Positions 36,565-51,335 of a DNA stretch of 64,000 nucleotides are shown in pieces. Below the pieces are notes generated by a model, which was not told where the DNA came from, did not search any database, and saw nothing but the letters and a program-made list of their open reading frames with translations. Position 1 is the stretch's first letter, and every line of letters starts with the position of its first letter. The stretch lies in NCBI RefSeq assembly GCF_946886105.1, contig NZ_CAMPHV010000001.1, positions 124,001 to 188,000 of the forward strand, given 5' to 3'. Origin of the DNA: an uncultured Pseudomonas sp. (GTDB lineage: Bacteria; Pseudomonadota; Gammaproteobacteria; Pseudomonadales; Pseudomonadaceae). A program made the position numbers and the translations under genes.

Positions 36565-38508
36565 TCAAATCTCATCCAGCTCCACCAGTACCGCGCCTTC
36601 GGCGACCATTTCGCCCTCAGCGCAATACAGCGCCTTGACCACCCCGGCATGGGCCGCACGGATGCTGTGCTCCATCTTCATCGCTTCCAGTACCACCAGG
36701 GCGGTGCCGGCTTCGACGGTTTGCCCGGCCGCGACCAGTACGCGAACGATACTTCCGTTCATCGGCGCGCTCAGGCCGCCATGTTGGTGCTGACCGGCCT
36801 GCGCCTCGGCAATCGGGTCGACGCGCTGCACGCTGCGCAGCTCGCCGGCAAAATGCAAGTAGAGGCTGCCGCCGCGGCGGATCGCCAGGTGCTGACGGCG
36901 CACGCCGTCGCGCTCGACCAGCAGCTGCTCGCCGTGCAAGCGCACCTGGGGCTGCGCGCCATGGCGCAGACGAACCACCTGTCGCTCGCCCTGGCAGAGC
37001 AACTGTACGTCGATCTCGGCGGGCAGGCCTAAACGCAAGCCCTTGGCCGTCGCCCACGGCGAATGGGCATCGTCGTCGCGCTGGCAGGCAGTCTCGCTCT
37101 GCGCCATGGCTTCGGCGGCCAGTTGCCAGAATTCGCTGGGCAACTCGGCGGCGCCCGGCAGCAGTTCTTGCTGATAACGCGGAATAAAGCCGGTATCCAG
37201 TTCGCAGGCGGCGAAGGCGGGGTGGGCCAGTACGCGCTGCAGAAACGCCAGATTGGCCCTGACGCCGCCGACGCAAGTCTCCGCCAGCATCGCCAGCAAG
37301 CGCAGGCGGGCTTCTTCGCGGTTCTCGCCCCAGGCGATCAACTTGCCGAACATCGGGTCGTAGAACGGTGAAATCTCGTCACCCTCGCAGACCCCACTGT
37401 CGACCCGACGCCCCGGCCCGGTCTGGGCTTCGCGGTACAGCGCCAGGGTGCCGGTGGCCGGCAGAAAATCGTTGTCCGGGTCTTCGGCGTACAGGCGTAC
37501 CTCAATGGCATGACCGTTCAGAGGCACTTGATCCTGAGTGATCGGCAACGGCTCGCCACGGGCCACGCGAATCTGCCAGGCCACCAGATCGAGCCCGGTG
37601 ATGGCTTCGGTGACCGGATGCTCGACCTGCAGGCGGGTGTTCATCTCCATAAAGAAGAAATCACCACGCTCATCCAGCAGGAACTCCACGGTACCGGCGC
37701 CGACATAGCCGATCGCTTGCGCGGCTTTAACCGCGGCTTCGCCCATGGCGCGGCGCAGTTGCGGGGTCAGGCCCGGAGCCGGCGCTTCCTCGACCACTTT
37801 CTGGTGGCGGCGTTGGATCGAGCAGTCGCGTTCGTTCAGGTACAGGCAGTTGCCGTGCTGGTCGGCGAACACCTGGATCTCCACATGGCGCGGTTTGAGC
37901 ACGTATTTTTCCACCAGCATGCGCGCATCGCCGAACGACGATTGCGCTTCGCGCTGGGCGCTGAGCAGCGCTTCGGCCAGCTCGCTTTCCCGTTCAACCA
38001 CTTTCATGCCCTTGCCGCCACCGCCAGCGGCGGCCTTGAGCAGCACCGGGTAGCCGATCACCTCGGCGGCGGCGCGGAAGGTTTCCACATCCTGGGCTTC
38101 GCCGTGGTAACCGGGCACCAGCGGCACCCCGGCCTGTTCCATCAAGGCTTTGGCCGCGGATTTGCTGCCCATGGTCTCGATGGCGGAGGCGGGCGGGCCG
38201 AGGAAAATCAGCCCGGCCTGCTCGATGGCGTGGGCAAAGCCGGCATTCTCCGAAAGAAAGCCATAGCCCGGATGAATCGCCTGGGCGCCGCTGGCCTTGG
38301 CCGCGGCGATCAGTGCGTCGATACGCAGGTAGCTCTCCGCCGGTTTGGCGCCGCCGAGGTCGACGCGGATATCCGCCTCGCGGACGTGCCGCGCATTGGC
38401 ATCGATAGCGCTATGCACGGCCACGGTGGTGATGCCCATGGCTTTCGCGGTGCGCATGACCCGGCAGGCGATTTCCCCGCGGTTGGCCACCAAAAGGGTT
38501 GTGATCAT
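36565..38508 (-). CDS. liuD: Methylcrotonyl-CoA carboxylase, biotinylated alpha subunit LiuD
   Basis: 647-residue biotin-dependent carboxylase subunit. Order: biotin carboxylase N-domain from residue 1 (TTLLVANRGEIACRVMRTAK), ATP-grasp domain with GGGGKGMKVV and NTRLQVEHPVTE, C-domain, then the BT linker region and a C-terminal biotin carrier domain in which Lys611 (VLEAMKMEHSI) is biotinylated. It carboxylates biotin, which LiuB uses to make 3-methylglutaconyl-CoA. ATG at 38508 is followed directly by the homology; the open frame runs 23 codons upstream across the liuC end and is rejected. 22 bases separate it from liuC. Confidence 0.96.
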   Translation of the reverse strand: MITTLLVANRGEIACRVMRTAKAMGITTVAVHSAIDANARHVREADIRVDLGGAKPAESYLRIDALIAAAKASGAQAIHPGYGFLSENAGFAHAIEQAGLIFLGPPASAIETMGSKSAAKALMEQAGVPLVPGYHGEAQDVETFRAAAEVIGYPVLLKAAAGGGGKGMKVVERESELAEALLSAQREAQSSFGDARMLVEKYVLKPRHVEIQVFADQHGNCLYLNERDCSIQRRHQKVVEEAPAPGLTPQLRRAMGEAAVKAAQAIGYVGAGTVEFLLDERGDFFFMEMNTRLQVEHPVTEAITGLDLVAWQIRVARGEPLPITQDQVPLNGHAIEVRLYAEDPDNDFLPATGTLALYREAQTGPGRRVDSGVCEGDEISPFYDPMFGKLIAWGENREEARLRLLAMLAETCVGGVRANLAFLQRVLAHPAFAACELDTGFIPRYQQELLPGAAELPSEFWQLAAEAMAQSETACQRDDDAHSPWATAKGLRLGLPAEIDVQLLCQGERQVVRLRHGAQPQVRLHGEQLLVERDGVRRQHLAIRRGGSLYLHFAGELRSVQRVDPIAEAQAGQHQHGGLSAPMNGSIVRVLVAAGQTVEAGTALVVLEAMKMEHSIRAAHAGVVKALYCAEGEMVAEGAVLVELDEI

Positions 38509-38530
38509 CGTTTCGACTCCATTGCCGGCA

Positions 38531-39328
38531 TCATGCTCGTTCCTGCCAAGCCGGTTTGCGTTTATCGAGGAAGGCACGCAGGCCTTCCTGGCCCTCGGCG
38601 CTGACGCGAATGCGGGCGATGGCGTTTTCGGTATAGCGGCGCAGGGCAGGGGTCAGCACGCCGCTGCCGACCTCGCGCAGCAAATCCTTGCTGGCTTGCA
38701 TGGCCAGCGGGCTGTTGAGCAGCAGGTTGTCGACCCAGGTCTGCACCGCACCATCCAGCTCGTGCGCCGGGTAGCATTCGGCGAACAAGCCCAGCTCGCG
38801 GGCGCGCTCGCCGCTGAAACGTTCGGCTGTGATGGCGAAACGTCGCGCCGCGCGTTCGCCGATGGCCTGCACAACGAAAGGGCTGATCACCGCCGGGGCC
38901 AGGCCGATGCGCACTTCGGACAGGCATAACTGCGCGTCTTCGGCGCCAATGGCCATATCGCAGCAACTGATCAAGCCCAGAGCGCCGCCGAAGGCCGCGC
39001 CTTGCACCACGGCCAGGGTCGGGATCTTCAACTGATACAGGTTGTGCATCAGTTCGGCCAGCTCGCGCGAATCGGCCAGGTTGGCGTTGTAGTCCAGGGT
39101 CGCGGCGTGCTGCATCCAGGCCAGATCGGCACCAGCGGAGAAATGTTTGCCACGACCGCGTAGCAGCAGAAAGCGCAGGCTCTTATCGGCCATCACCGCG
39201 TCGAGGGCGAGAATCAGCTCGCGGATCATCTCGGCGTTGAAGGCGTTGTTCTTGTCGGCGCGATTCAGCCAGAGGGTGGCGAAGCCGCGTGGGTCTGTTT
39301 CGAGCTGGATGGTGCTGAAGTCGGTCAT
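38531..39328 (-). CDS. liuC: 3-Methylglutaconyl-CoA hydratase LiuC
   Basis: 265-residue crotonase-family enzyme hydrating 3-methylglutaconyl-CoA to HMG-CoA. Landmarks are the oxyanion regions RGKHFSAGADLAWM and VVQGAAFGGALGLISCCDMA, then CLSEVRIGLAPAVISPFVV with the catalytic Glu region. The start is the ATG at 39328 (MTDFSTIQLETDPRGFATLW), with GAAG at a suitable distance; an ATG two codons earlier (39334) is possible. An inverted repeat lies just upstream, between it and liuB. Confidence 0.93.
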   Translation of the reverse strand: MTDFSTIQLETDPRGFATLWLNRADKNNAFNAEMIRELILALDAVMADKSLRFLLLRGRGKHFSAGADLAWMQHAATLDYNANLADSRELAELMHNLYQLKIPTLAVVQGAAFGGALGLISCCDMAIGAEDAQLCLSEVRIGLAPAVISPFVVQAIGERAARRFAITAERFSGERARELGLFAECYPAHELDGAVQTWVDNLLLNSPLAMQASKDLLREVGSGVLTPALRRYTENAIARIRVSAEGQEGLRAFLDKRKPAWQERA

Positions 39329-39337
39329 GGTCATCTT

Positions 39338-39396
39338 CGTAGGGTGCGCTGTGCGCACCATTGCGTTGAAAAGCGGTGCGCGCAGCGCACCCTACG
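39338..39396. repeat. Inverted repeat GTAGGGTGCGC...GCGCACCCTAC between liuB and liuC
   Basis: CGTAGGGTGCGCTGTGCGCA plus CC (39338-39359) is mirrored by GGTGCGCGCAGCGCACCCTA plus CG (39375-39396), with one mismatch and a 15-base centre. This sequence type recurs in many gamma-proteobacterial genomes, from memory. It fills the liuB-liuC gap and would fold in the operon mRNA. Confidence 0.9.
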
Positions 39397-39407
39397 GTAT
39401 TCCGGCC

Positions 39408-41015
39408 TTACATGCGGAACACACCAAAGGTAGTCGGCTCGATCGGCGCATTGAGGCTGGCCGATAGCGCCAGACCCAGCACCTCACGGGTCTGCGCCGG
39501 GTCAATCACGCCGTCGTCCCACAGCCGCGCGCTGGAATAGTAAGGATGGCCCTGGCGTTCGTACTGCTCGAGGATCGGCTGCTTGAGCTTGGCTTCCTCC
39601 TCGGCGGAGAAGTCGTGACCGGCGCGGGCGGCCTGTTCGTGCTTGACCTGCACCAGCACGCCGGCGGCCTGCTCGGCACCCATCACACCGATCCGCGCGT
39701 TCGGCCACATCCACAGAAAGCGCGGGTCGTAGGCGCGGCCGCACATGCCGTAGTTGCCGGCACCGAAGCTGCCGCCGATGATTACGGTGAACTTCGGCAC
39801 CTTGGCGCAGGCCACCGCATTGACCAGCTTGGCGCCATGCTTGGCGATGCCGCCGGCCTCGTACTTTTGCCCGACCATAAAGCCGGTGATGTTCTGCAGG
39901 AACAGCAGCGGTATGCCGCGCTGGCAGGCCAGTTCGATAAAGTGCGCGCCTTTTTGCGCCGATTCGGCGAACAGGATGCCGTTATTGGCGAGGATCGCCA
40001 CCGGATAGCCCTGGATATACGCGAAACCGCAGACCAGGGTGGCGCCGAACAGCGCCTTGAATTCGTCGAACAGCGAGCCATCGACAATGCGGGCGATCAC
40101 TTCTCGCACGTCGAACGGCTGCTTGGCGTCCGCGGGAATCACCCCGTACAACTCGGCGGCGTCGAACAAGGGGGCGATGGGCGCGCGGCTGTTGAGCACA
40201 CCGAGCTTGCGCCAATTGAGGTTGGCGATGCTGCGCCGCGCCAGGGCCAGGGCGTGTTCGTCGTTGTCGGCGTAGTGGTCGGCCACGCCCGAGGTCTTGC
40301 AGTGCACATCGGCGCCGCCGAGCTCCTCGGCGCTGACCACTTCGCCGGTGGCGGCCTTCACCAGCGGCGGGCCGGCGAGGAAGATGGTCGCCTGTTCGCG
40401 CACCATGATCGCCTCGTCGGCCATCGCCGGCACATAGGCGCCGCCGGCGGTGCAGGAGCCCATGACCACAGCGATCTGCGGGATTCCCATGGCGGACATG
40501 TTGGCCTGGTTGAAGAAGATTCGGCCGAAGTGTTCACGGTCGGGGAACACCTCATCCTGACGCGGCAGGTTGGCGCCGCCGGAGTCGACCAGGTAAATGC
40601 AAGGCAGGCGGTTCTGCTGGGCGATGGCCTGGGCGCGCAGGTGCTTCTTCACCGTCAGCGGGTAATAGCTGCCGCCCTTCACCGTGGCGTCGTTGGCCAC
40701 GATCATGCATTCGACGCCTTCGACCCGGCCGATCCCGGCGACCACGCCAGCAGCGGGCACGTCCTCGCCATATACCTGGTAAGCGGCCAACTGGCCGATC
40801 TCGAGGAATGGCGAGCCGAGATCCAGCAGGCGGTTGATCCGTTCGTGCGGCAGCAGCTTGCCGCGCGAAGTATGGCGATGCTGGGCCTTTTCACCGCCAC
40901 CTTCGTGAATGCGCGCGAGCAGGGCGCGCAGGTCGCCCACCTGGGCGAGCATCGCCGCACTATTGGCGGCGAACTCCGGCGAGCGGGTGTTGATCTGGGT
41001 ATGCAGGATGGCCAT
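39408..41015 (-). CDS. liuB: Methylcrotonyl-CoA carboxylase beta subunit LiuB
   Basis: 535-residue carboxyltransferase subunit that moves CO2 from biotin on LiuD to 3-methylcrotonyl-CoA. Typical carboxyltransferase blocks are [60 protein letters not shown] and [20 protein letters not shown]. The ATG at 41015 follows GGAGTGA and gives [15 protein letters not shown]; the longer open frame runs into the repeat upstream. Length equals the P. aeruginosa protein from memory. Confidence 0.96.
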
Positions 41016-41032
41016 GCGGCTCACTCCATCGC

Positions 41033-41108
41033 TAGCCCGGATGCAATCCGGGGTCTTTGTCTCGCGGCACCAACCGCTCCCGGATTGCGCCAAGGCGTAT
41101 CCGGGCTA
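41033..41108. repeat. Palindromic repeat, TAGCCCGGATGCAATCCGGG family, copy 3
   Basis: Left arm TAGCCCGGATGCAATCCGGG at 41033-41052. The right side, CCCGGATTGCGCCAAGGCGT plus ATCCGGGCTA (41079-41108), carries a 10-base insertion relative to the other copies. It occupies the whole liuA-liuB gap and ends about 13 bases before the liuA stop. Confidence 0.9.
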
Positions 41109-41121
41109 CGGTTCTTGCGGC

Positions 41122-42285
41122 TTATTTGGTCTCGTTAAACAACTCGCGGCCTATCAGCATGCGGCGGATCTCGCTGGTGCCGGCGCCGATCTCGTAGAGC
41201 TTGGCGTCACGCAAAAGGCGGCCGGTGGGAAACTCGTTGATATAGCCGTTACCGCCGAGGATCTGGATCGCCTCCAAGGCCATTTGCGTCGCGCGCTCGG
41301 CGGTGTAGAGGATCACCCCGGCGGCGTCCTTGCGCGTTGTTTCGCCGCGGTCGCAGGCGTTGGCCACGGCGTACAGGTAGGCGCGGCTGGCGTTGAGTTG
41401 GGTGTACATGTCGGCGACCTTGCCCTGGATCAGCTGGAACTCGCCGATGCTCTGGCCGAACTGCTTGCGGTCGTGGATATAGGGCACGATCACGTCCATG
41501 CAGGCCTGCATGATGCCCACCGGGCCGCCGGAGAGGACCACGCGCTCGTAATCCAGGCCGCTCATCAACACGCGTACGCCGCCGTTTTCCAGACCCAGCA
41601 CGTTTTCTTCCGGCACTTCGACGTCATCGAAGAACAGCTCGCAGGTGTTTGAGCCGCGCATGCCGAGCTTGTCGAACTTGTTGCCGCGGCTGAAACCTTT
41701 CCAGTCGCGCTCGACGATAAAGGCGGTGATCCCGTGAGGGCCCTTGTCCAGGTCGGTTTTGGCGTAGATCACGTAGGTATTGGCATCCGGGCCGTTGGTG
41801 ATCCAGGTTTTGCTGCCGTTGAGCACGTAGCGGTCGCCCTTGCGGTCGGCGCGCAGTTTCATGCTCACCACGTCGGAGCCGGCGTTCGGCTCGCTCATCG
41901 CCAGGGCGCCGACATGTTCGCCGGAAACCAGCTTGGGCAGGTACTTGGCTTTCTGGGCGGCCGAGCCGTTGCGCTTGATCTGGTTGACGCAGAGGTTGGA
42001 GTGGGCGCCGTAGGAGAGGGCGACCGAGGCCGAGCCGCGGCTGATTTCCTCCATGGTGATCACATGGGCCATATAGCCCAAACCTGAGCCGCCGTATTCC
42101 TCTTCGACGGTGACGCCGAGCAAGCCCATCTCGCCGAATTTCTTCCACATGTCCATGGGGAACTGGTTGCTGCTGTCGATCTCGGCGGCGCGCGGCGCAA
42201 GCTCGGCGGCGACAAAGGACTGCACCTGCTCGCGCAGCATGTCGATGGTCTCGCCGAGGGCGAAGTTGAGGGACGGATAGCTCAT
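41122..42285 (-). CDS. liuA: Isovaleryl-CoA dehydrogenase LiuA
   Basis: 387-residue FAD enzyme oxidising isovaleryl-CoA to 3-methylcrotonyl-CoA, first committed step of the pathway. Acyl-CoA dehydrogenase blocks are [40 protein letters not shown] and [20 protein letters not shown]. The catalytic Glu is in [16 protein letters not shown], the position used by isovaleryl-CoA dehydrogenase rather than the usual C-terminal site. ATG at 42285 follows ATAGGTGGAACC. liuR lies 29 bases upstream on the same strand, so the regulator probably heads the operon. Confidence 0.96.
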
Positions 42286-42314
42286 GGTTCCACCTATCTG
42301 AATCGAAATCAGGT

Positions 42315-42716
42315 TTATTGTGTAATAGGTTGTTTTTTATCGGTTTCTGCTAGCGCTTTTAAGCAGCGTTCTTCGGCTGTATCCAATTCCAGCTGCATTT
42401 GTCGAATGTCCAGTAGCTGCTGTTCCAACTGCGCGCGGCGTTCGGTGATCTTTTGCATAAAGGTCTGCAACTGCTTGCGGTTGCCATGCACCGGGTCGTA
42501 CAGCTCGATCAGCTCCTTGCATTCGGCGAGGGAGAAGCCGATGCGCTTACCGCGCAGAATCAACTTGAGGGTGACCTTGTCCTTGGCGCTGTAGATGCGC
42601 TCCTGGCCGCGCCGCTCGGGGCTGAGCATCTGCTGCTCTTCATAAAAGCGAATGGCGCGGGTGGTGATATCCAGCTCGCGGGCCAGTTCGGAAATGGAGT
42701 AGGTGATGGCGGACAT
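42315..42716 (-). CDS. liuR: MerR-family regulator LiuR of leucine/isovalerate catabolism
   Basis: 133-residue MerR-type regulator. The winged HTH is [20 protein letters not shown] with the following wing ([19 protein letters not shown]), then a C-terminal coiled coil ([20 protein letters not shown]) for dimerisation. The long effector domain of some MerR proteins is absent, as in LiuR. The ATG at 42716 is chosen; an in-frame GTG two codons earlier (42722) is about equally possible given GAGAG upstream. A perfect palindrome 24 bases before the start is the expected autoregulatory operator, and liuABCDE follow in the same direction. Confidence 0.92.
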
Positions 42717-42739
42717 ATTCACGGCGCTCTCGTTTACCT

Positions 42740-43605: not shown

Positions 43606-44292
43606 CTAGGCGATTTCCTTGATTTCGAACACATTGACGATCTGCTGCAGCTTGCCGTCCCACACGTAACGCAGATGCACGCCTTGCTGCGGAATGCTCG
43701 CCGCGGGCGGACGGAACAGCGCGGCGCACTCGCCGCCGGGATGCCTGACGCTGCGGTAGAGCAGGCCCCAGGAGCGCTGGTTGCGCAATTCGGCGGCGAA
43801 ACGTTGGGCGACCGGATAAGCACTCAAATCCGGATCGTGAAGGTGATCGTAATTGTTGCGGATATCGTGCAGCGGCTTGACGATGCGACACACGTAGGTG
43901 CGCAGGGTCAGTTCCAGATTGGGTTCGGCGGTCGCGCGCAAAAAGCGCTCGCGATGGAAGCGAGTTTCCGCCACCGCGGCCTGCAGGCTGTCGGCGCAGT
44001 AGTAAACGCCGTATTGCCCGGCGGTAAAGCGGCTCACCGCGCCGACATGGGTAAACGCGGCCATCAATGGCGATGAGCCGGGGCCGCTGACGCGGTCTTC
44101 GGCGGCCACATGGGACAGCAGGCCCGCTTCCTCGCGCAGGCGATCGTTGGTCAGGCCTTCGATCAGATAGGCCAGCTCCAGATCCGCGGGGTCGAGCACA
44201 TCCTCGAACACCGAAATCGGTGGAAAGGCGCTGGAGACCAGCCGATAAGCCCGTCGCCAGCCGGGTAGAACCAGCGTGGGCGGCGCGCTCAA
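43606..44292 (-). CDS. RES-domain toxin of a type II toxin-antitoxin pair
   Basis: About 228 residues, RES family; characterised members degrade NAD+ when not blocked by the Xre antitoxin. The conserved block is GVYYCADSLQAAVAETRFHR with Glu109, and the Ser of the R-E-S triad is probably Ser181 (LYRSVRHPGGECAALF); Arg17 in WRRAYRLV is the likely Arg. The open frame reaches 44412 inside the antitoxin gene, but the only start compatible with the domain is TTG at 44292, whose TTG overlaps the antitoxin TGA as TTGA. That implies translation of the toxin is coupled to, and weaker than, the antitoxin. Antitoxin first, toxin second is the usual order. Confidence 0.88.
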   Translation of the reverse strand: MSAPPTLVLPGWRRAYRLVSSAFPPISVFEDVLDPADLELAYLIEGLTNDRLREEAGLLSHVAAEDRVSGPGSSPLMAAFTHVGAVSRFTAGQYGVYYCADSLQAAVAETRFHRERFLRATAEPNLELTLRTYVCRIVKPLHDIRNNYDHLHDPDLSAYPVAQRFAAELRNQRSWGLLYRSVRHPGGECAALFRPPAASIPQQGVHLRYVWDGKLQQIVNVFEIKEIA

Positions 44293-44693
44293 CCCCTGAC
44301 CCCGTCGAGGTAGCGGCGTACGTCGGCAAGGTCCACCACGCCGCCGGCCAGCATCAGCTGCAAAGCGCTGTTGCCGTTGAACGGCGCCTCGCTGTTGGCT
44401 TTCTTGACCCATTCATAGGTCGAAGGCTTGTCGCCGAAGAGGATGCGCAGGGACTTGTGAATACCCATTAGGTACGACACCCGCTCCATGGTGTCGCGCG
44501 GCAAGCGCACCTCGGGCAGTTGCCGGTACTTGTACAGGGTGCTGCGGCCGATGGAGCCCAGCAGGACCATCTGCTGCTCCAGGGTGCAATTCCATTTTTC
44601 CATCAGGTTGAAAAAGAACTTCAGGGCGACCTGGCCGGCTTTGGCCGAGTCGGGATCGAAAACGGGGGCGTTGTGCTGCATGGCAACGGACAT
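44289..44693 (-). CDS. Xre/MbcA/ParS-type antitoxin (DUF2384)
   Basis: 134-residue partner of the RES toxin. The N-terminal half is a helix-turn-helix (LNLMEKWNCT region, then LLGSIGRSTLYKYRQLP) and the C-terminal half is the DUF2384 toxin-binding domain (MERVSYLMGIHKSLRILFGD, then WVKKANSEAPFNGNSALQLM, ending ADVRRYLDGVRG). It would neutralise the toxin and repress the operon. ATG at 44693 follows GGAGAACG. Upstream, TCCACAT occurs twice on the minus strand within 30 bases (about 44705-44742), a possible autorepression site. Confidence 0.9.
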   Translation of the reverse strand: MSVAMQHNAPVFDPDSAKAGQVALKFFFNLMEKWNCTLEQQMVLLGSIGRSTLYKYRQLPEVRLPRDTMERVSYLMGIHKSLRILFGDKPSTYEWVKKANSEAPFNGNSALQLMLAGGVVDLADVRRYLDGVRG

Positions 44694-44849
44694 GAGCGTT
44701 CTCCGTATGTGGACTATAAGTCGATACTATTCCCGATGTGGAATTCAGGCAATGCATTATTTGCGGGTTCTTGCGCGAGTGACGCTCACAGGGAGTGAAT
44801 GGCATATCCAATGCAAATCGATTGACTCATGGGCTTGTCGAATAGTTTG

Positions 44850-44861
44850 GTTAGCGCTAAC
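44850..44861 (+). promoter_or_regulatory. Palindrome GTTAGCGCTAAC upstream of gntK (probable GntR operator)
   Basis: A perfect 12-base palindrome of the LacI-family type, 50 bases before the gntK start and just after a possible -35 TTGACT at 44822. It shares TAGCGCTAAC with the site at 45499-45508 inside the gene. TAGCGCT is, from memory, part of the reported GntR target in P. aeruginosa. Confidence 0.7.
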
Positions 44862-44911
44862 ATCGCCAGCACAATACGTGGCGCCACATCGATGGTCGCC
44901 CAGGAGAACAC

Positions 44912-46045
44912 ATGCACATATCCTATTCTGCCGCCGCGACACCGGCTCGCCACACCTTGGTGGTGATGGGCGTCAGCGGTTCCGGCAAGACCGAAATCAG
45001 TCATGGCGTCGCCCGCGAACTGGGCTGGCGGCATATCGAAGCCGACAGCTTTCACCCCAGCGAGAACATCGAGCGCATGCGTGCCGGCATCGCCCTCAGC
45101 GATGAGGACCGCATCCAGTGGCTCGATGCGCTGATCGTCGAAATGCAACACGCCTTGGCCGCGGGCCAGAGTTTCGTCCTGGCCTGTTCGGCGCTCAAAC
45201 GCGCTTACCGCGAGCGTTTACGCCAGGCGGTGCCGGGTTTGCAGTTCGCCTATCTGAAAATCGATCGCGCCACGGCCTTGCAGCGTGTTGGTGCCCGGCC
45301 CGGGCATTTCATGCCGACTTCGCTGGTCGACAGCCAGTTCGCCACCTTGCAGTCGCCCGAGGGAGAGCTCCATGTGGTGGCGGTCGATGCGAGCAAGAGC
45401 CGTGAAGCGGTGATCGCGGAAATCTGCCGGTGGGTCATGCGCGACTCCGCGGAGGAGGCCATCGAAGAGCGGGTCGATCTTTCTGCGAAAGAATTTGATA
45501 GCGCTAACCATGCGCCGTCGCTGACAGGCGAGCCCATCTATGGCGGCTTCCTGGCGAGCCTGTTCGATCGCCTTACCGATGGCCTGATGGCGGTGCTGAT
45601 GACCTTTATGGTGGTGGCGGTATTCGGCAACGTGGTGCTGCGTTACGCCTTCGGCACTGGCTGGGCCGGGGCCGAGGAGCTGTCGCGGCTGGCCTTCGTC
45701 TGGCTGGTGTTCGTCGGCGTGGCCTCGAGCATGCGCCGCGGCGAGCTGATGCGTTTTTCGATGATCCGCGATCGTTTCGCCAAGACCTGGCGGCGCCTGC
45801 TCGATTCCTGCAGCTGGCTGCTGGTGGCCGGCGCCAGCCTGCTCTGCGCCTGGGGCGCCTGGAACCAACTGCGATACGGCTGGGGCAATATCAGCACCGT
45901 GGTCGGTTACCCGGTAGGGCTGGCGATGCTGCCGGTGATGGCGTGTATGGGCGTGCTGGCGTTGTTGGCGCTGGTGCAATTGATCAATACCTGGCGCCGG
46001 CCAGCCAACCAGGGAGCGGCGTCCGCCAATGTCACAGCCGACTGA
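44912..46045 (+). CDS. gntK: Gluconokinase fused to TRAP transporter small membrane subunit (GntK-DctQ)
   Basis: One 377-residue frame with two unrelated domains. Residues about 12-176 are a GntK-type gluconokinase: P-loop GVSGSGKT (20-27), HIEADSFHPSENIERM and ACSALKRAYRERLR. Residues 177-212 form a charged linker. From about 213 to 365 is a DctQ-type TRAP small permease with four membrane helices (DRLTDGLMAVLMTFMVVAVF; TGWAGAEELSRLAFVWLVFV). Normally these are separate proteins. No stop, frameshift or convincing internal start lies at the junction. ATG at 44912 follows AGGAGAACAC. The large permease and binding protein follow. The arrangement would tether the kinase to the uptake channel, phosphorylating gluconate (or a similar sugar acid) as it enters. 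A GntR-like site lies within the linker codons. Confidence 0.87.
   Translation: MHISYSAAATPARHTLVVMGVSGSGKTEISHGVARELGWRHIEADSFHPSENIERMRAGIALSDEDRIQWLDALIVEMQHALAAGQSFVLACSALKRAYRERLRQAVPGLQFAYLKIDRATALQRVGARPGHFMPTSLVDSQFATLQSPEGELHVVAVDASKSREAVIAEICRWVMRDSAEEAIEERVDLSAKEFDSANHAPSLTGEPIYGGFLASLFDRLTDGLMAVLMTFMVVAVFGNVVLRYAFGTGWAGAEELSRLAFVWLVFVGVASSMRRGELMRFSMIRDRFAKTWRRLLDSCSWLLVAGASLLCAWGAWNQLRYGWGNISTVVGYPVGLAMLPVMACMGVLALLALVQLINTWRRPANQGAASANVTAD
45497..45508 (+). promoter_or_regulatory. GntR-like operator GATAGCGCTAAC within the fusion linker
   Basis: GATAGCGCTAAC differs by one base from the palindrome at 44850. It is read as the linker residues Asp196-Ser-Ala-Asn199, at the boundary between kinase and transporter domains. 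It may be a relic of a promoter that once preceded a separate dctQ gene, or an auxiliary operator for looping. Confidence 0.5.
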
Positions 46046-46084
46046 TCTGCTTTCTAACAAGCCGTTGCAGACGAGGAGCCAGCC

Positions 46085-47425: not shown

Positions 47426-48439
47426 ATGAGACGTCCACTGATCACCGTTCTGGCTGCGGCCCTGCTATGCAGCCCCTTTGCCTCGCTGAGCGCCCATGCC
47501 GATGAAGTCCGTTCGCGAATGATCCGCTTCGGCTACGGCCTCAATGAAAACAGCAACCAGGGCAGGGCGGCCAAGCTGTTCGCCGAGGAGGTGGCCAAGG
47601 CCTCCGAAGGCAAACTGAAGATGCGCACCTATGCCGCGGCCAGCCTGGGCTCGGACGACCAGATGCAAAGCGCGTTGATCGGTGGCGCTCAGGAAATGAT
47701 GGTCGGCTCCACCGCGACCCTGGTTGGGATCAGCAAGGAGATGGCGGTGTGGGATACACCGTTTCTGTTCAGCAGCGCCGCGCAGGCCGATGCCGTGCTC
47801 GACGGTCCGGTCGGCCGACAGGTGATGAACAAGCTCGAAGAGAAGGGCCTGGTCGGCCTGGTGTATTGGGAAAACGGTTTCCGCAATATGACCAACAACG
47901 TGCGGCCGATCACCAAGCTGGAAGAGTTTTCCGGGATCAAACTGCGCGTGATGCCCAACCCGGTGTTTCTCGAAACCTTCAAGCTGATGGGCGCTAATGC
48001 CGTGCCGTTGCCGTTCTCCGAGCTGTTCACCGCGTTGGAAACCAAGGCCGTGGACGGCCAGGAAAACCCCTTCAACACCATCCTCTCGTCGAAGTTCTAC
48101 GAGGTGCAGCAGTACCTGACCGTGACCAACCACGTCTACAGCCCGTGGATCGTCACCGCCTCCAAGCGCTGGTGGGATGGCTTGTCGCAGGCCGAGCAGG
48201 GCATCCTCATGGCAGCCGCGAAGAAAGCCCGCGACTTCGAGCGCCTGGACACCCGCGAGGAAGCCGCCAAGGCACTGGCGCAGCTCAAGGCCAACGGTAT
48301 GCAGGTCAACGAAATCAGCCCGGACGAAGTGCAGCGCATGCGCGAGACCGCTCAGCCGGCGATTCAGCAAGTGATCGATACCGTCGGCCAGCCGCTGTTC
48401 GACAGCGTTCAGGCCGAGCTGGCCAAGGCACCGCAGTAA
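47426..48439 (+). CDS. TRAP transporter periplasmic binding protein (DctP family)
   Basis: 337-residue secreted binding protein of the TRAP system. The signal peptide covers about residues 1-25 (ending SAHA-D). The DctP fold shows GYGLNENSNQGRAAKLFAEE, the carboxylate-binding Arg region GIKLRVMPNPVFLETFKLMG and the downstream ETKAVDGQENPFNTILSSKF. The Arg in KLRVMPNP should bind the substrate carboxyl group, consistent with a sugar acid. AAAAGGTAACCC precedes the ATG. It is the last structural gene before a GC hairpin and gntR. Confidence 0.92.
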   Translation: MRRPLITVLAAALLCSPFASLSAHADEVRSRMIRFGYGLNENSNQGRAAKLFAEEVAKASEGKLKMRTYAAASLGSDDQMQSALIGGAQEMMVGSTATLVGISKEMAVWDTPFLFSSAAQADAVLDGPVGRQVMNKLEEKGLVGLVYWENGFRNMTNNVRPITKLEEFSGIKLRVMPNPVFLETFKLMGANAVPLPFSELFTALETKAVDGQENPFNTILSSKFYEVQQYLTVTNHVYSPWIVTASKRWWDGLSQAEQGILMAAAKKARDFERLDTREEAAKALAQLKANGMQVNEISPDEVQRMRETAQPAIQQVIDTVGQPLFDSVQAELAKAPQ

Positions 48440-48526: not shown

Positions 48527-49546
48527 ATGAGCCAACGCCGCCGCCGTTCAGCCGAGCGCGTCACCCTGTCCGATGTGGCCAAGGCCGCCGACTGTTCCTT
48601 GATGTCCGCCTCGCGCGCGTTGTCCCAGCCGGATAGGGTCTCCGACACCCTGCGCGAGCAGGTGATGCAGGCGGCGAGGGCGCTAGGCTATGTGCCCAAT
48701 CCAGCCGCACGGGCCTTGGCCAGCTCGAAATCCAACCTGGTGGCGGTGGTGATTCCATCGCTGTCCAACTCGGTGTTCGTCGACACCGTCGAGGCCATCC
48801 AGCGGGTGCTGATGCCGGCCGGCTTCGAGATGATGATCGGCGTCAGCCACTACCGCCCGGAAGAGGACGAACGTCTGCTGCGCTCATACCTCGCGCACCA
48901 GCCCGCGGGCTTGCTGGTGACCGGCTTCGAGCGCAGTGACACGGCGCGGGAAATCCTCGGCGGTTGCCGTGGCCCAGTGGTCACCATGATGGAGCTGAGC
49001 GACGCCGAGGACGATTACTGCGTCGGTTTTTCTCAATTCGAGGCCGGCGCCGCCATGACCCGGGCGCTGATCGAACGCGGTTACCGGCATATCGCCTTTG
49101 CCGCCGCGCAACTCGACCCGCGCACCTTGCAGCGTGCCGAAGGCTATCGACAGACCATGCGCAGCCATGGGCGTTACGACCCGAACCTGGAATTGCTGAC
49201 CCCGGAGCTGTCCTCGATCGGTCTGGGCGCCAATCTGCTGGATCGCCTGCTGGCGCAGCATCCGCAAATCGACGCGGTGTTCTTCAACAACGACGACCTG
49301 GCGATGGGTGCGCTGTTCCGCGCCCGCCAGCTCGGCCTCGTGGTGCCGCAACGGCTGGCGATCGCCGGTTTCAACGACCTGCCGGCGGCGGCCTGGTTGC
49401 AGCCGGCCCTGACCACGGTACGCACCACTCGCGGGCGCATCGGCCAGTTGGCGGGGGAAATGTTGTTGACCCTGATGCGTGGCGAGCAACCGGCGCAGCA
49501 TTGCATCGATGTCGGTTTCGAACTGGTGCTGCGCGAGAGCGCGTAG
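48527..49546 (+). CDS. gntR: LacI-family regulator GntR
   Basis: 339-residue repressor of the LacI family, close to Pseudomonas GntR, which is released by gluconate or 6-phosphogluconate. The N-terminal HTH and hinge helix are VTLSDVAKAADCSLMSASRA and RVSDTLREQVMQAARALGYV, followed by NPAARALASSKSNLVAVVIP; the rest is a periplasmic-binding-protein-like sensor domain (GFNDLPAAAWLQPALTTVRT). It follows the TRAP genes by 87 bases and likely controls the two palindromes at 44850 and 45497. A TAGAAT at about 48493 could be its own -10. Confidence 0.9.
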   Translation: MSQRRRRSAERVTLSDVAKAADCSLMSASRALSQPDRVSDTLREQVMQAARALGYVPNPAARALASSKSNLVAVVIPSLSNSVFVDTVEAIQRVLMPAGFEMMIGVSHYRPEEDERLLRSYLAHQPAGLLVTGFERSDTAREILGGCRGPVVTMMELSDAEDDYCVGFSQFEAGAAMTRALIERGYRHIAFAAAQLDPRTLQRAEGYRQTMRSHGRYDPNLELLTPELSSIGLGANLLDRLLAQHPQIDAVFFNNDDLAMGALFRARQLGLVVPQRLAIAGFNDLPAAAWLQPALTTVRTTRGRIGQLAGEMLLTLMRGEQPAQHCIDVGFELVLRESA

Positions 49547-49551
49547 CGCCG

Positions 49552-50301
49552 CTAGGGTTGCTGGTAGCGCTCCAACAGGCGCGGGATGTCGCCATTATCG
49601 TACCCGCGGCGAATCACTTCGTTGAACGCCTTGAGAAATTCGCCCATGGCCAGCCGCTTATGGAAACCGAGGTAATTGGCGTCGCGCTTGAGTGGCCGGG
49701 GCAGTGCCTGGATATCACCGGCGTGGGCCAGCAATTTCTGGTCCTGGGCGATGGCCCGCTGTAGACCAACCAGGCCCGGGTTGATCAAGGCCACGTCGAT
49801 GCGGCCGGCCAGCAATTTGTTCAGTCGCGAAACCGGGCCGTTATCCTCGTCGACCTGAAACAGGCCATGCCGACGGGCCTGCTCGAACTCCTCGCCGAAA
49901 CTGCCGCCGGCCCCGATCCCCACACGACGCCCCCTGAGGTCGTCGATATCCTTGAAGTCGAACGCCTCGCCGTTACGCACCACGATCAGCACTTCGTCAT
50001 AGAACAGCGGTTCGGAGTAGTCGAAAATCTGCTGGCGTTCGGCCGTCCAGCTCAGGCCGACGATGCCGGCCTGGGCGTCCTCTGCCATCCAGTAGGCGCG
50101 AGCCCAGGGGTAGAGGTGCAGGGTAAAGCTATGTGCGGGCATGGCGGCATCGGCATACCGAAGTATGTCGACCAACATACCTCGGGGTTCATCGGCTTCG
50201 GCATAGATTTTCGGTACCGAATAGTTGTTGCCGACAATCAGCAGTTCCTGGGCCTGAGTCGCGCCGCAGAACAAAAGGCAAAGCAGTAGCAAATGGCGCA
50301 T
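49552..50301 (-). CDS. Periplasmic solute-binding protein, family 3 type
   Basis: 249-residue secreted protein with a signal peptide (MRHLLLLCLLFCGATQA) and a family-3 amino-acid-binding fold: ILIVGNNYSVPKIYAEADEP-like start, WARAYWMAEDAQAGIVGLSW, DLRGRRVGIGAGGSFGEEF and RLNKLLAGRIDVALINPGL. No permease or ATPase genes are adjacent, so it may be an orphan sensor or serve a distant transporter. The start at 50301 is set by the signal peptide; an upstream extension of 17 codons is rejected. It converges with gntR, five bases apart. A second orphan of the same kind lies at 57553. Confidence 0.82.
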   Translation of the reverse strand: MRHLLLLCLLFCGATQAQELLIVGNNYSVPKIYAEADEPRGMLVDILRYADAAMPAHSFTLHLYPWARAYWMAEDAQAGIVGLSWTAERQQIFDYSEPLFYDEVLIVVRNGEAFDFKDIDDLRGRRVGIGAGGSFGEEFEQARRHGLFQVDEDNGPVSRLNKLLAGRIDVALINPGLVGLQRAIAQDQKLLAHAGDIQALPRPLKRDANYLGFHKRLAMGEFLKAFNEVIRRGYDNGDIPRLLERYQQP

Positions 50302-50402
50302 CCGGCACGACCTAACAAGCAGCTCCTCGTAGGCGCAAGATAAGCTCCGCACGCCAGTTTGCCCAGCCTATTTCGTCCCCCCGAGCAGTTGGCTAGGTGC
50401 CC

Positions 50403-51335
50403 TCATTCCGGCGCCTTTTCGATCTTCTTTTCCTGCGCCGTGACGTGCTGGCAGATTTCGATGATCTGCTCGCGCATCCAGCGGTTCGCCGGGTCCTGGT
50501 CGGTGCTTTCATGCCAGTACAGGTGGGTTTCCAGGGCCGGCACGTCATTCACCGGCAATTGCACGTAATGCAGCTCGTTACGCCGGGCGAAGCGTTCCGG
50601 CACGGTCATCGCCAGGTCGGTATTGAGCATCACCGTGGATGCCATCAGGTAGTGCTGCGAGCGCAATGCCACGCGGCGTTGCAAGCCCATCTTGCCGAGC
50701 GACAGGTCGATATAACCCAGGCCGCTGCGGCGGCTGGAAATATGGATATGGGTCAGGGACAGGTATTCGTCCAGGCTGATCTTGTCCTTGGACAACGGAT
50801 GGCCTTTGCGCATGGCGCAGACGTAACGGTCTTCCATCAGCTTGACGTGGCGCACCTGGGGGTCGGTGTTGAGCGGCGCGTCGACGGCGAAATCCAGACG
50901 CCCGGCGGCCAGTTCCTTGGTGGTGTCGCGGCGCCGCGAGAGCATGCTCTCGATCGTCACGTTCGGCGCCAGGCGGCGCAGACGCTGGAACAACGGCGGC
51001 AGGACCACGGCCTCAGTCAGGTCGGTCATGCTGATGCGGTAGGTTTTATTCGCCTGGGCGGGGGTGAAGGTGCGGCTTTCCTGCACCGAGATGCGCAATT
51101 GCTGCAGGGCGTTGCGCACCGGGCCGATGATGTTCTGCGCCATCGGCGTCGGCACCATACCTTGTGCGGTGCGCACGAACAGGGGGTCGTTGAAGGTTTC
51201 GCGCAGACGGGCGAGGGCGTTGGAAACCGCCGGCTGGGTGATACCGACAATCTGTCCGGCGCGGGTCAGATTGGCTTCGGTGTAGATGGCGTCGAAAACG
51301 ATGAAGAGGTTCAGGTCGACCTTGTTGAGATTCAT
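50403..51335 (-). CDS. LysR-family transcriptional regulator
   Basis: 310-residue LysR-type regulator with the N-terminal HTH (LNLFIVFDAIYTEANLTRAG, then GITQPAVSNALARLRETFND) and a C-terminal effector-binding domain (TYRISMTDLTEAVVLPPLFQ). It is divergent from an acyl-CoA dehydrogenase gene over a 157-base interval containing a palindrome, the usual arrangement for activation of the divergent gene. P. aeruginosa has a comparable pair (PA2551-PA2552, from memory). The C-terminus is Lys/Glu-rich (QEKKIEKAPE). Effector unknown; an acyl-CoA or fatty acid is the contextual guess. Confidence 0.9.
   Translation of the reverse strand: MNLNKVDLNLFIVFDAIYTEANLTRAGQIVGITQPAVSNALARLRETFNDPLFVRTAQGMVPTPMAQNIIGPVRNALQQLRISVQESRTFTPAQANKTYRISMTDLTEAVVLPPLFQRLRRLAPNVTIESMLSRRRDTTKELAAGRLDFAVDAPLNTDPQVRHVKLMEDRYVCAMRKGHPLSKDKISLDEYLSLTHIHISSRRSGLGYIDLSLGKMGLQRRVALRSQHYLMASTVMLNTDLAMTVPERFARRNELHYVQLPVNDVPALETHLYWHESTDQDPANRWMREQIIEICQHVTAQEKKIEKAPE

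Follow-up and report, generated by a model that had tools for sequence, protein, structure and literature searches.

A gluconokinase fused to a TRAP small permease in Pseudomonas, with a candidate GntR operator in its coding linker

In the gluconate operon of this uncultured Pseudomonas sp., a gluconokinase and the small permease (DctQ) of a TRAP transporter are encoded in one reading frame, and the linker between them contains a candidate operator of the repressor GntR. The explanation that we consider probable, on the grounds of sequence comparisons, is that of a fused kinase-permease in whose linker, a translated former intergenic region, a GntR operator has been kept as a roadblock or loop anchor. 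The product is most likely a single membrane-anchored bifunctional protein, in which DctQ would hold the kinase at the cytoplasmic face of the membrane and, together with the large permease DctM and the solute-binding protein DctP, would import a sugar acid. The features of the window (the whole stretch of 64,000 nucleotides that was analyzed) on which the argument turns are as follows.

44835..44863, + strand: promoter-like TTGTCG-17-TAACAT, overlapping op1
44850..44861, no strand assigned: candidate promoter operator op1, GTTAGCGCTAAC, 647 bp before the linker operator
44912..46045, + strand: gntK-dctQ fusion gene, ATG start, 377 amino acids, no internal stop
44957..45439, + strand: gluconokinase domain, residues 16-176, P-loop GVSGSGKT, TIGR01313 above cut-off
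45449..45544, + strand: linker, residues 180-211, pLDDT < 50, species-variable in the alignment
45497..45508, no strand assigned: candidate intragenic GntR-type operator op2, GATAGCGCTAAC, codons GAT AGC GCT AAC (D-S-A-N, residues 196-199)
45608..46000, + strand: DctQ small permease domain, residues 233-363, PF04290
46085..47362, + strand: dctM, large permease, PF06808, with its own GAGGAG at 46073-46078
47426..48439, + strand: dctP, solute-binding protein, PF03480; best PDB sequence match 7bbr (E 1e-95)
48527..49546, + strand: gntR, LacI-family repressor, NF052440, recognition helix CSLMSASR

The earlier note had proposed that complete GntK and DctQ domains share one uninterrupted frame, and profile searches bore this out. 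The kinase half scored 177.9 bits against NCBIfam TIGR01313 (GntK/IdnK; cut-off, 113.75), and the permease half 84.4 bits against Pfam DctQ PF04290 (cut-off, 28.3), covering positions 1 to 132 of the 132 in the profile. The end of the kinase, which the note had put near residue 176, stood, and its permease border had to be corrected: helices do begin at about residue 213, with the PF04290 match at 233-363 and residues 180-211 forming a linker. An AGGAG motif (44902-44906) lies five bases upstream of the ATG. The AlphaFold2 model, built from a 33-sequence input, had a mean pLDDT of 69 and a pTM of 0.47; the kinase part reached ca. 80 to 92 in most blocks, with dips near residues 121-140, and the DctQ part was predicted with middling confidence as four long helices (213-247, 254-276, 291-325, and 329-362), only three of which were flagged by a hydropathy scan. 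The closest structures were gluconate kinases both by fold (3t61, 4eun, and 1ko5) and by sequence (4eun, 3t61, and 1knq), and DctQ was absent among the 50 structural matches listed for the fusion model. Eight K/R residues lie between helices two and three of DctQ and none or one in the outer loops. This charge pattern fits a cytoplasmic N terminus (N-in), which would place the kinase in the cytoplasm.

We also tallied start codons in 101 fused loci, three of which had no anchor. The only in-frame start common to loci past the linker was an ATG at the head of helix 1, found in all 98 anchored loci; a TTG at -5 occurred in 24 loci, and no in-frame start between op2 and the first helix was common to more than 24. 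Separate translation of DctQ from a conserved start is thus unsupported by the tally of these 98 loci; a short DctQ might, in principle, begin at an invariant ATG at residue 226.

That GntR and the other two TRAP subunits adjoin the fusion, as had also been claimed, was confirmed by profile matches for DctM, DctP, and GntR, all on the same strand. DctP, DctQ, and DctM make up a TRAP set, and the gene order was identical in 34 of 34 longer loci. The ribosome site of dctM was rated strong, and GntR scored 484.5 bits against the Pseudomonas-type model NF052440 (equivalog cut-off, 400). The nearest solved relative of DctP, 7bbr, is what we take to be the sugar-acid receptor CxaP. Considering this relative together with gntK and gntR, we infer that the substrate is a sugar acid, most likely gluconate. 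The title of a work on the sugar-acid receptor CxaP appears in the reference list of PMC12076931. The closest named models for the membrane subunits were those of Escherichia coli YiaMNO, a 2,3-diketo-L-gulonate TRAP transporter (66.3 bits for DctQ-YiaM and 510 bits for DctM-YiaN), but these scores are far below the equivalog cut-offs of 260 and 800, and YiaM has no fused kinase. Fused TRAP permeases (DctQM; TIGR02123) are also TRAP gene fusions, but they join two membrane subunits, whereas the fusion in the window joins an enzyme to a permease; its DctM is not a DctQM-type fusion.

Other genes lie on the minus strand on both sides of the operon. It is adjoined by a RES-Xre type pair (43606-44693), made up of a RES-domain gene and an Xre/MbcA/ParS-type antitoxin gene. 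Farther away (36565-42722) are a MerR regulator and an acyl-CoA dehydrogenase, followed by frames resembling a leucine/isovalerate breakdown cluster, whose carboxylase subunits and enoyl-CoA hydratase were named by eye. Downstream of gntR (49552-51335) are an SBP_bac_3 protein and a LysR regulator. The LysR-like start MNLNKVDLNLFIVFD downstream of gntR recurs in four other loci described below (L059 and L064 to L066).

The fusion is widespread. A protein search returned 586 relatives at an E value of ≤0.001, and the best 120 of these all contained PF04290, 119 of them being 360 to 405 amino acids long and one 303. At the DNA level, the fetched loci comprised 101 fused in one frame, one split (L059), and seven with the kinase alone; since some genomes were fetched twice, the 101 fused loci correspond to 84 distinct proteins and to 51 representatives under 95% identity. 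In a sample of 398 genomes from the family of one relative (G001), the fusion was present in 72 by row count (68 rows spanning both domains plus four fused with longer linkers), and many other Pseudomonas have the architecture. When 293 genomes of the order were sampled (E ≤ 1e-30), matches across both domains were confined to two genomes already known, G001 and G031. A strain-specific fusion is ruled out by the 72 family genomes and the 101 fetched loci, and a sequencing error at the junction by the many relatives with both domains in one frame. Hosts among the first 28 loci included P. mendocina, P. oleovorans, P. indica, P. sediminis, P. taeanensis, and P. benzenivorans, to which protein names added Stutzerimonas. 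The protein is annotated in databases as "gluconokinase," "TRAP transporter small permease subunit," or "Multifunctional fusion protein," and the fusion is therefore already present in them.

In a midpoint-rooted tree of 67 related kinase sequences, one branch (support, 100/96) separated 12 unfused Pseudomonas kinases and that of locus L118 from the 51 fused and three solo kinases, and the kinase trees are consistent with a single origin of the fusion. The solo kinases (L064 to L066) look like permease losses, since they nest inside a clade of 32 fused kinases (100/99). They keep the LysR-type neighbor common to the clade, but the stretch read contains neither the operator nor TRAP genes nor gntR. 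Locus L059 is a natural split (2217-2300) in which the kinase and DctQ occupy separate overlapping frames just past the operator; in a kinase tree without the canonical rows, its kinase fell within the fused clade. The split is matched by P0125, a separate 174-amino-acid DctQ (standing for 14 sequences on 11 contigs) with an identical start point and 71% identity to the DctQ of the window. The nearest clearly unfused DctQ proteins, partly from Burkholderiaceae, were ca. 45 to 50% identical; the class-level DctQ matches L120 to L127 were outside the inspection. Locus L118 (genome G784) was rejected as an independent fusion: it has a 388-codon DctQ frame, but its kinase sits in another frame. 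As in the window, the kinase directly precedes dctQ and dctM; unlike there, the gntK and dctQ frames overlap by four bases (ATGA) with no operator between them, and AGCGCT is found only upstream of the kinase.

Evolution thus undoes the fusion at times, by a split in L059 and by absence of DctQ in L064 to L066. These cases, nested in the fused clade, would be expected if the fusion were nearly neutral, a stop codon having been lost between two co-transcribed genes with no gain from joining them. We give this reading credence, at somewhat less than even weight, given that 72 of the 398 family genomes, distributed over deep branches, have kept the fusion and that no more than one split was observed. 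A benefit from joining is possible through the coupling of transport to phosphorylation that the earlier note had suggested, the tethered kinase trapping gluconate as it leaves DctQM. Both domains are intact and above family cut-offs, and the charge-based topology would put the kinase on the appropriate side, but the linker is long, variable in length, and disordered in the model, and fission and loss are tolerated; we consider such vectorial coupling possible but less likely than not.

The linker itself, which varied between 66 and 171 nt from one domain match to the other among the 51 representatives, contains a conserved site. A frame-0 match to GATAGCGCTAAC with at least 10 of its 12 bases was present in 96 of the 101 fused loci (79 of the 84 distinct proteins and 46 of the 51 representatives), lying 36 to 63 nt past the kinase match and 12 to 111 nt ahead of the DctQ match. 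The exact form was present in 37 representatives, GATAGCGCTACC in six, and GACAGCGCTACC, GGTAGCGCTAAC, and GTTAGCGCTAAC in one each; the remaining five (L090, L097, L102, L103, and L105) had no such site. In the first set, TGATAGCGCTAAC was present in the linker of all 29 loci. The 8-mer TAGCGCTA was found nowhere else within the 51 representative frames, and 32 of the 34 longer loci had exactly two copies, one upstream and one in the linker; the other two (L014 and L018) had it in the linker only, with GGTAGCGCTGAC upstream. Three copies occurred in the window (at 44852, 45499, and 38406), a number reached by 2 of 100 shuffles. The third (38406-38413) lies inside a biotin-carboxylase-like frame on the other strand and was taken as chance. 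Both op1 and op2 contain TAGCGCT, the core of the Pseudomonas GntR operator.

Codon choice indicates that the constraint acts on the DNA. We compared each site with the usage of the same genes, with the rest of the gene as a control (the sequences are related, and kinship was ignored). Of 354 four-codon windows, the 11 that ranked highest began without exception at residues 188 to 198 and lay within residues 188-201, FDSA ranking first and DSAN fourth. Among sequences with the commonest residue, the codons of op2 were AGC in 100% (usage in these genes, 46%), GCT in 98% (12%), AAC in 100% (67%), and GAT in 96% (50%). The codons of op2 are, therefore, among the most constrained in the fusion gene. 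One might still argue that D-S-A-N is a protein motif (a hinge, cleavage, or contact site) whose operator likeness is incidental, since no other peptide in the variable linker is conserved as well and 99 of 121 proteins have it (20 differ and two have no anchor). But its synonymous positions are fixed, residues 1 and 4 vary only so that a GntR-like half-site survives in most variants, and the same 8-mer occurs in the promoter and after gntK in unfused relatives, all of which makes this alternative highly improbable. Along similar lines, variants of the linker peptide track operator forms seen at op1, as in GTTAGCGCTAAC (V-S-A-N, L100) and GGTAGCGCTAAC (G-S-A-N, L086).

The unfused relatives suggest where such a site may have come from. 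Ten of the 12 unfused Pseudomonas loci have a AAGATAGCGCTRTC-like or GATAGCGCT-type site 14 to 28 bp past the gntK stop, ahead of what is probably gntP; no operator-like site was seen after this stop in the other two (L069 and L117). A 450-amino-acid frame begins 74 to 108 bp past the stop in these loci, and in the one tested, L068, it was GntP (TIGR00791). Because the matching site lies between gntK and gntP, the linker looks like a translated intergenic operator. In this scenario, gntP would have given way to dctQMP and the reading frame would have run on through the GntR operator, which stayed, making the linker the former gntK-gntP intergenic region.

The two variable residues of the recognition helix set specificity in the LacI family. 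This helix of GntR was SLMSASR in 33 of 33 fused-clade matches and SPITASR in 12 of 12 from the unfused loci L068 to L070 and L110 to L118; no match was obtained for L067, and many records of the fused clade stop short of gntR. The operator flanks were GNTAGCGCTAMC in the fused clade versus AAAGATAGCGCTGTCT-like in the unfused loci, so that helix and flanks differ in step between the two groups. We lean towards the view that an intergenic GntR operator became linker code, that selection preserved its function in the DNA across most of the Pseudomonas/Stutzerimonas-containing clade, its flanks changing with the recognition helix, and that the same 12 bases may be a working operator gating kinase-transporter expression. 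GntR footprints of P. plecoglossicida and P. aeruginosa have the same core (PMC12195362 and PMC5902321), and the published flanks (AC-N-AAG-N before the core and TCT after it) are unmatched by op1 and op2, which have GTT or GAT and AAC.

GntR would repress from op1, where the -10 part of the overlapping promoter-like pair is well conserved: among the 51 representatives, TA[AC]CAT was present in 49, whereas the full TTGTCG occurred in 19, with 42 retaining the TT at its start. The TTGTCG-17-TAACAT pair was not listed by a generic promoter scan of the window. In 46 representatives, the median fraction for a sigma-70-like score was 0.0 at op1 (that of L062 scored unremarkably) versus 0.49 at op2, no better than elsewhere in the gene; only 1 of 46 linkers retained the final T of the -10 element at op2. 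With an ordinary promoter-like score and the T lost in the other 45, op2 probably does not serve as a promoter operator.

The opposite view is that op2 serves a second, internal promoter making dctM, dctP, and gntR independently of the kinase, like the gntP promoter of P. aeruginosa. The matching site in unfused relatives precedes gntP, GntR acts at the gntP promoter in P. aeruginosa according to PMC5902321, dctM owns a strong ribosome site, and a GAT-CTT-TC stretch upstream of the operator is also codon constrained in many linkers. We nevertheless regard an internal promoter as unlikely, given the lack of a sigma-70-like signal above the level of the gene at large and the lost -10 ending, and also considering that a transcript from op2 would have no conserved start for the full DctQ. 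The GAT-CTT-TC stretch (D-L-S, 45476-45486), ca. 20 bases before the operator in many linkers, uses rare codons (CTT in 86% versus a usage of 6%), is missing from the mendocina-type linkers inspected, and is possibly a remnant of an old promoter.

Rather than serving a second promoter, op2, ca. 640 bp inside the transcribed unit, would strengthen repression as a roadblock or as the partner in a loop, which over this distance is its simplest use; the binding of GntR, its mode of action at op2, and the order of historical events are our inferences. The spacing between op1 and op2 was 629 to 664 bp, with 17 distinct distances and no helical phasing (R, 0.27), and looping is thus without direct support.

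Intragenic auxiliary operators are known for LacI-family repressors, for example, lac O2 in lacZ and the internal gal operator. There, too, the operon's first gene contains a repressor site that is hundreds of bases away from the one at the promoter, but those sites sit in the code for a folded domain, whereas op2 is in an interdomain linker and apparently is a former intergenic operator. The gntR-gntK(gnuK)-gntP system of P. aeruginosa and P. plecoglossicida shares the GntR NCBIfam family and the operator core AGCGCT with the window and likewise has two sites, the first on the gntK side and the second separating gntK from the transporter gene. Those species have a stand-alone gntK, a GntP transporter, a divergently oriented gntR, and an intergenic second operator; the operon in the window ends with gntR, uses a TRAP transporter, and has its second operator in coding sequence, and both the flanks and the recognition helix differ. 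Each element (domain fusion and intragenic operator) is familiar; the literature searched, mostly outside subscription journals, yielded no case of an intergenic operator apparently turned into conserved linker code and no published description of this fusion or of its linker operator.

The linker operator, absent from the earlier note, is a stronger and more testable finding than kinase-transporter coupling, and one that would surprise a specialist. It offers a clean natural case in which a protein linker apparently carries a regulatory DNA constraint; relatives have an intergenic counterpart, and site losses, one split, and permease loss can serve as natural controls. Whether an operator in a coding linker still regulates and whether uptake becomes faster when a kinase is tethered to a TRAP permease are questions now open to direct test. 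It is also a warning that conserved linker peptides may mark DNA elements.
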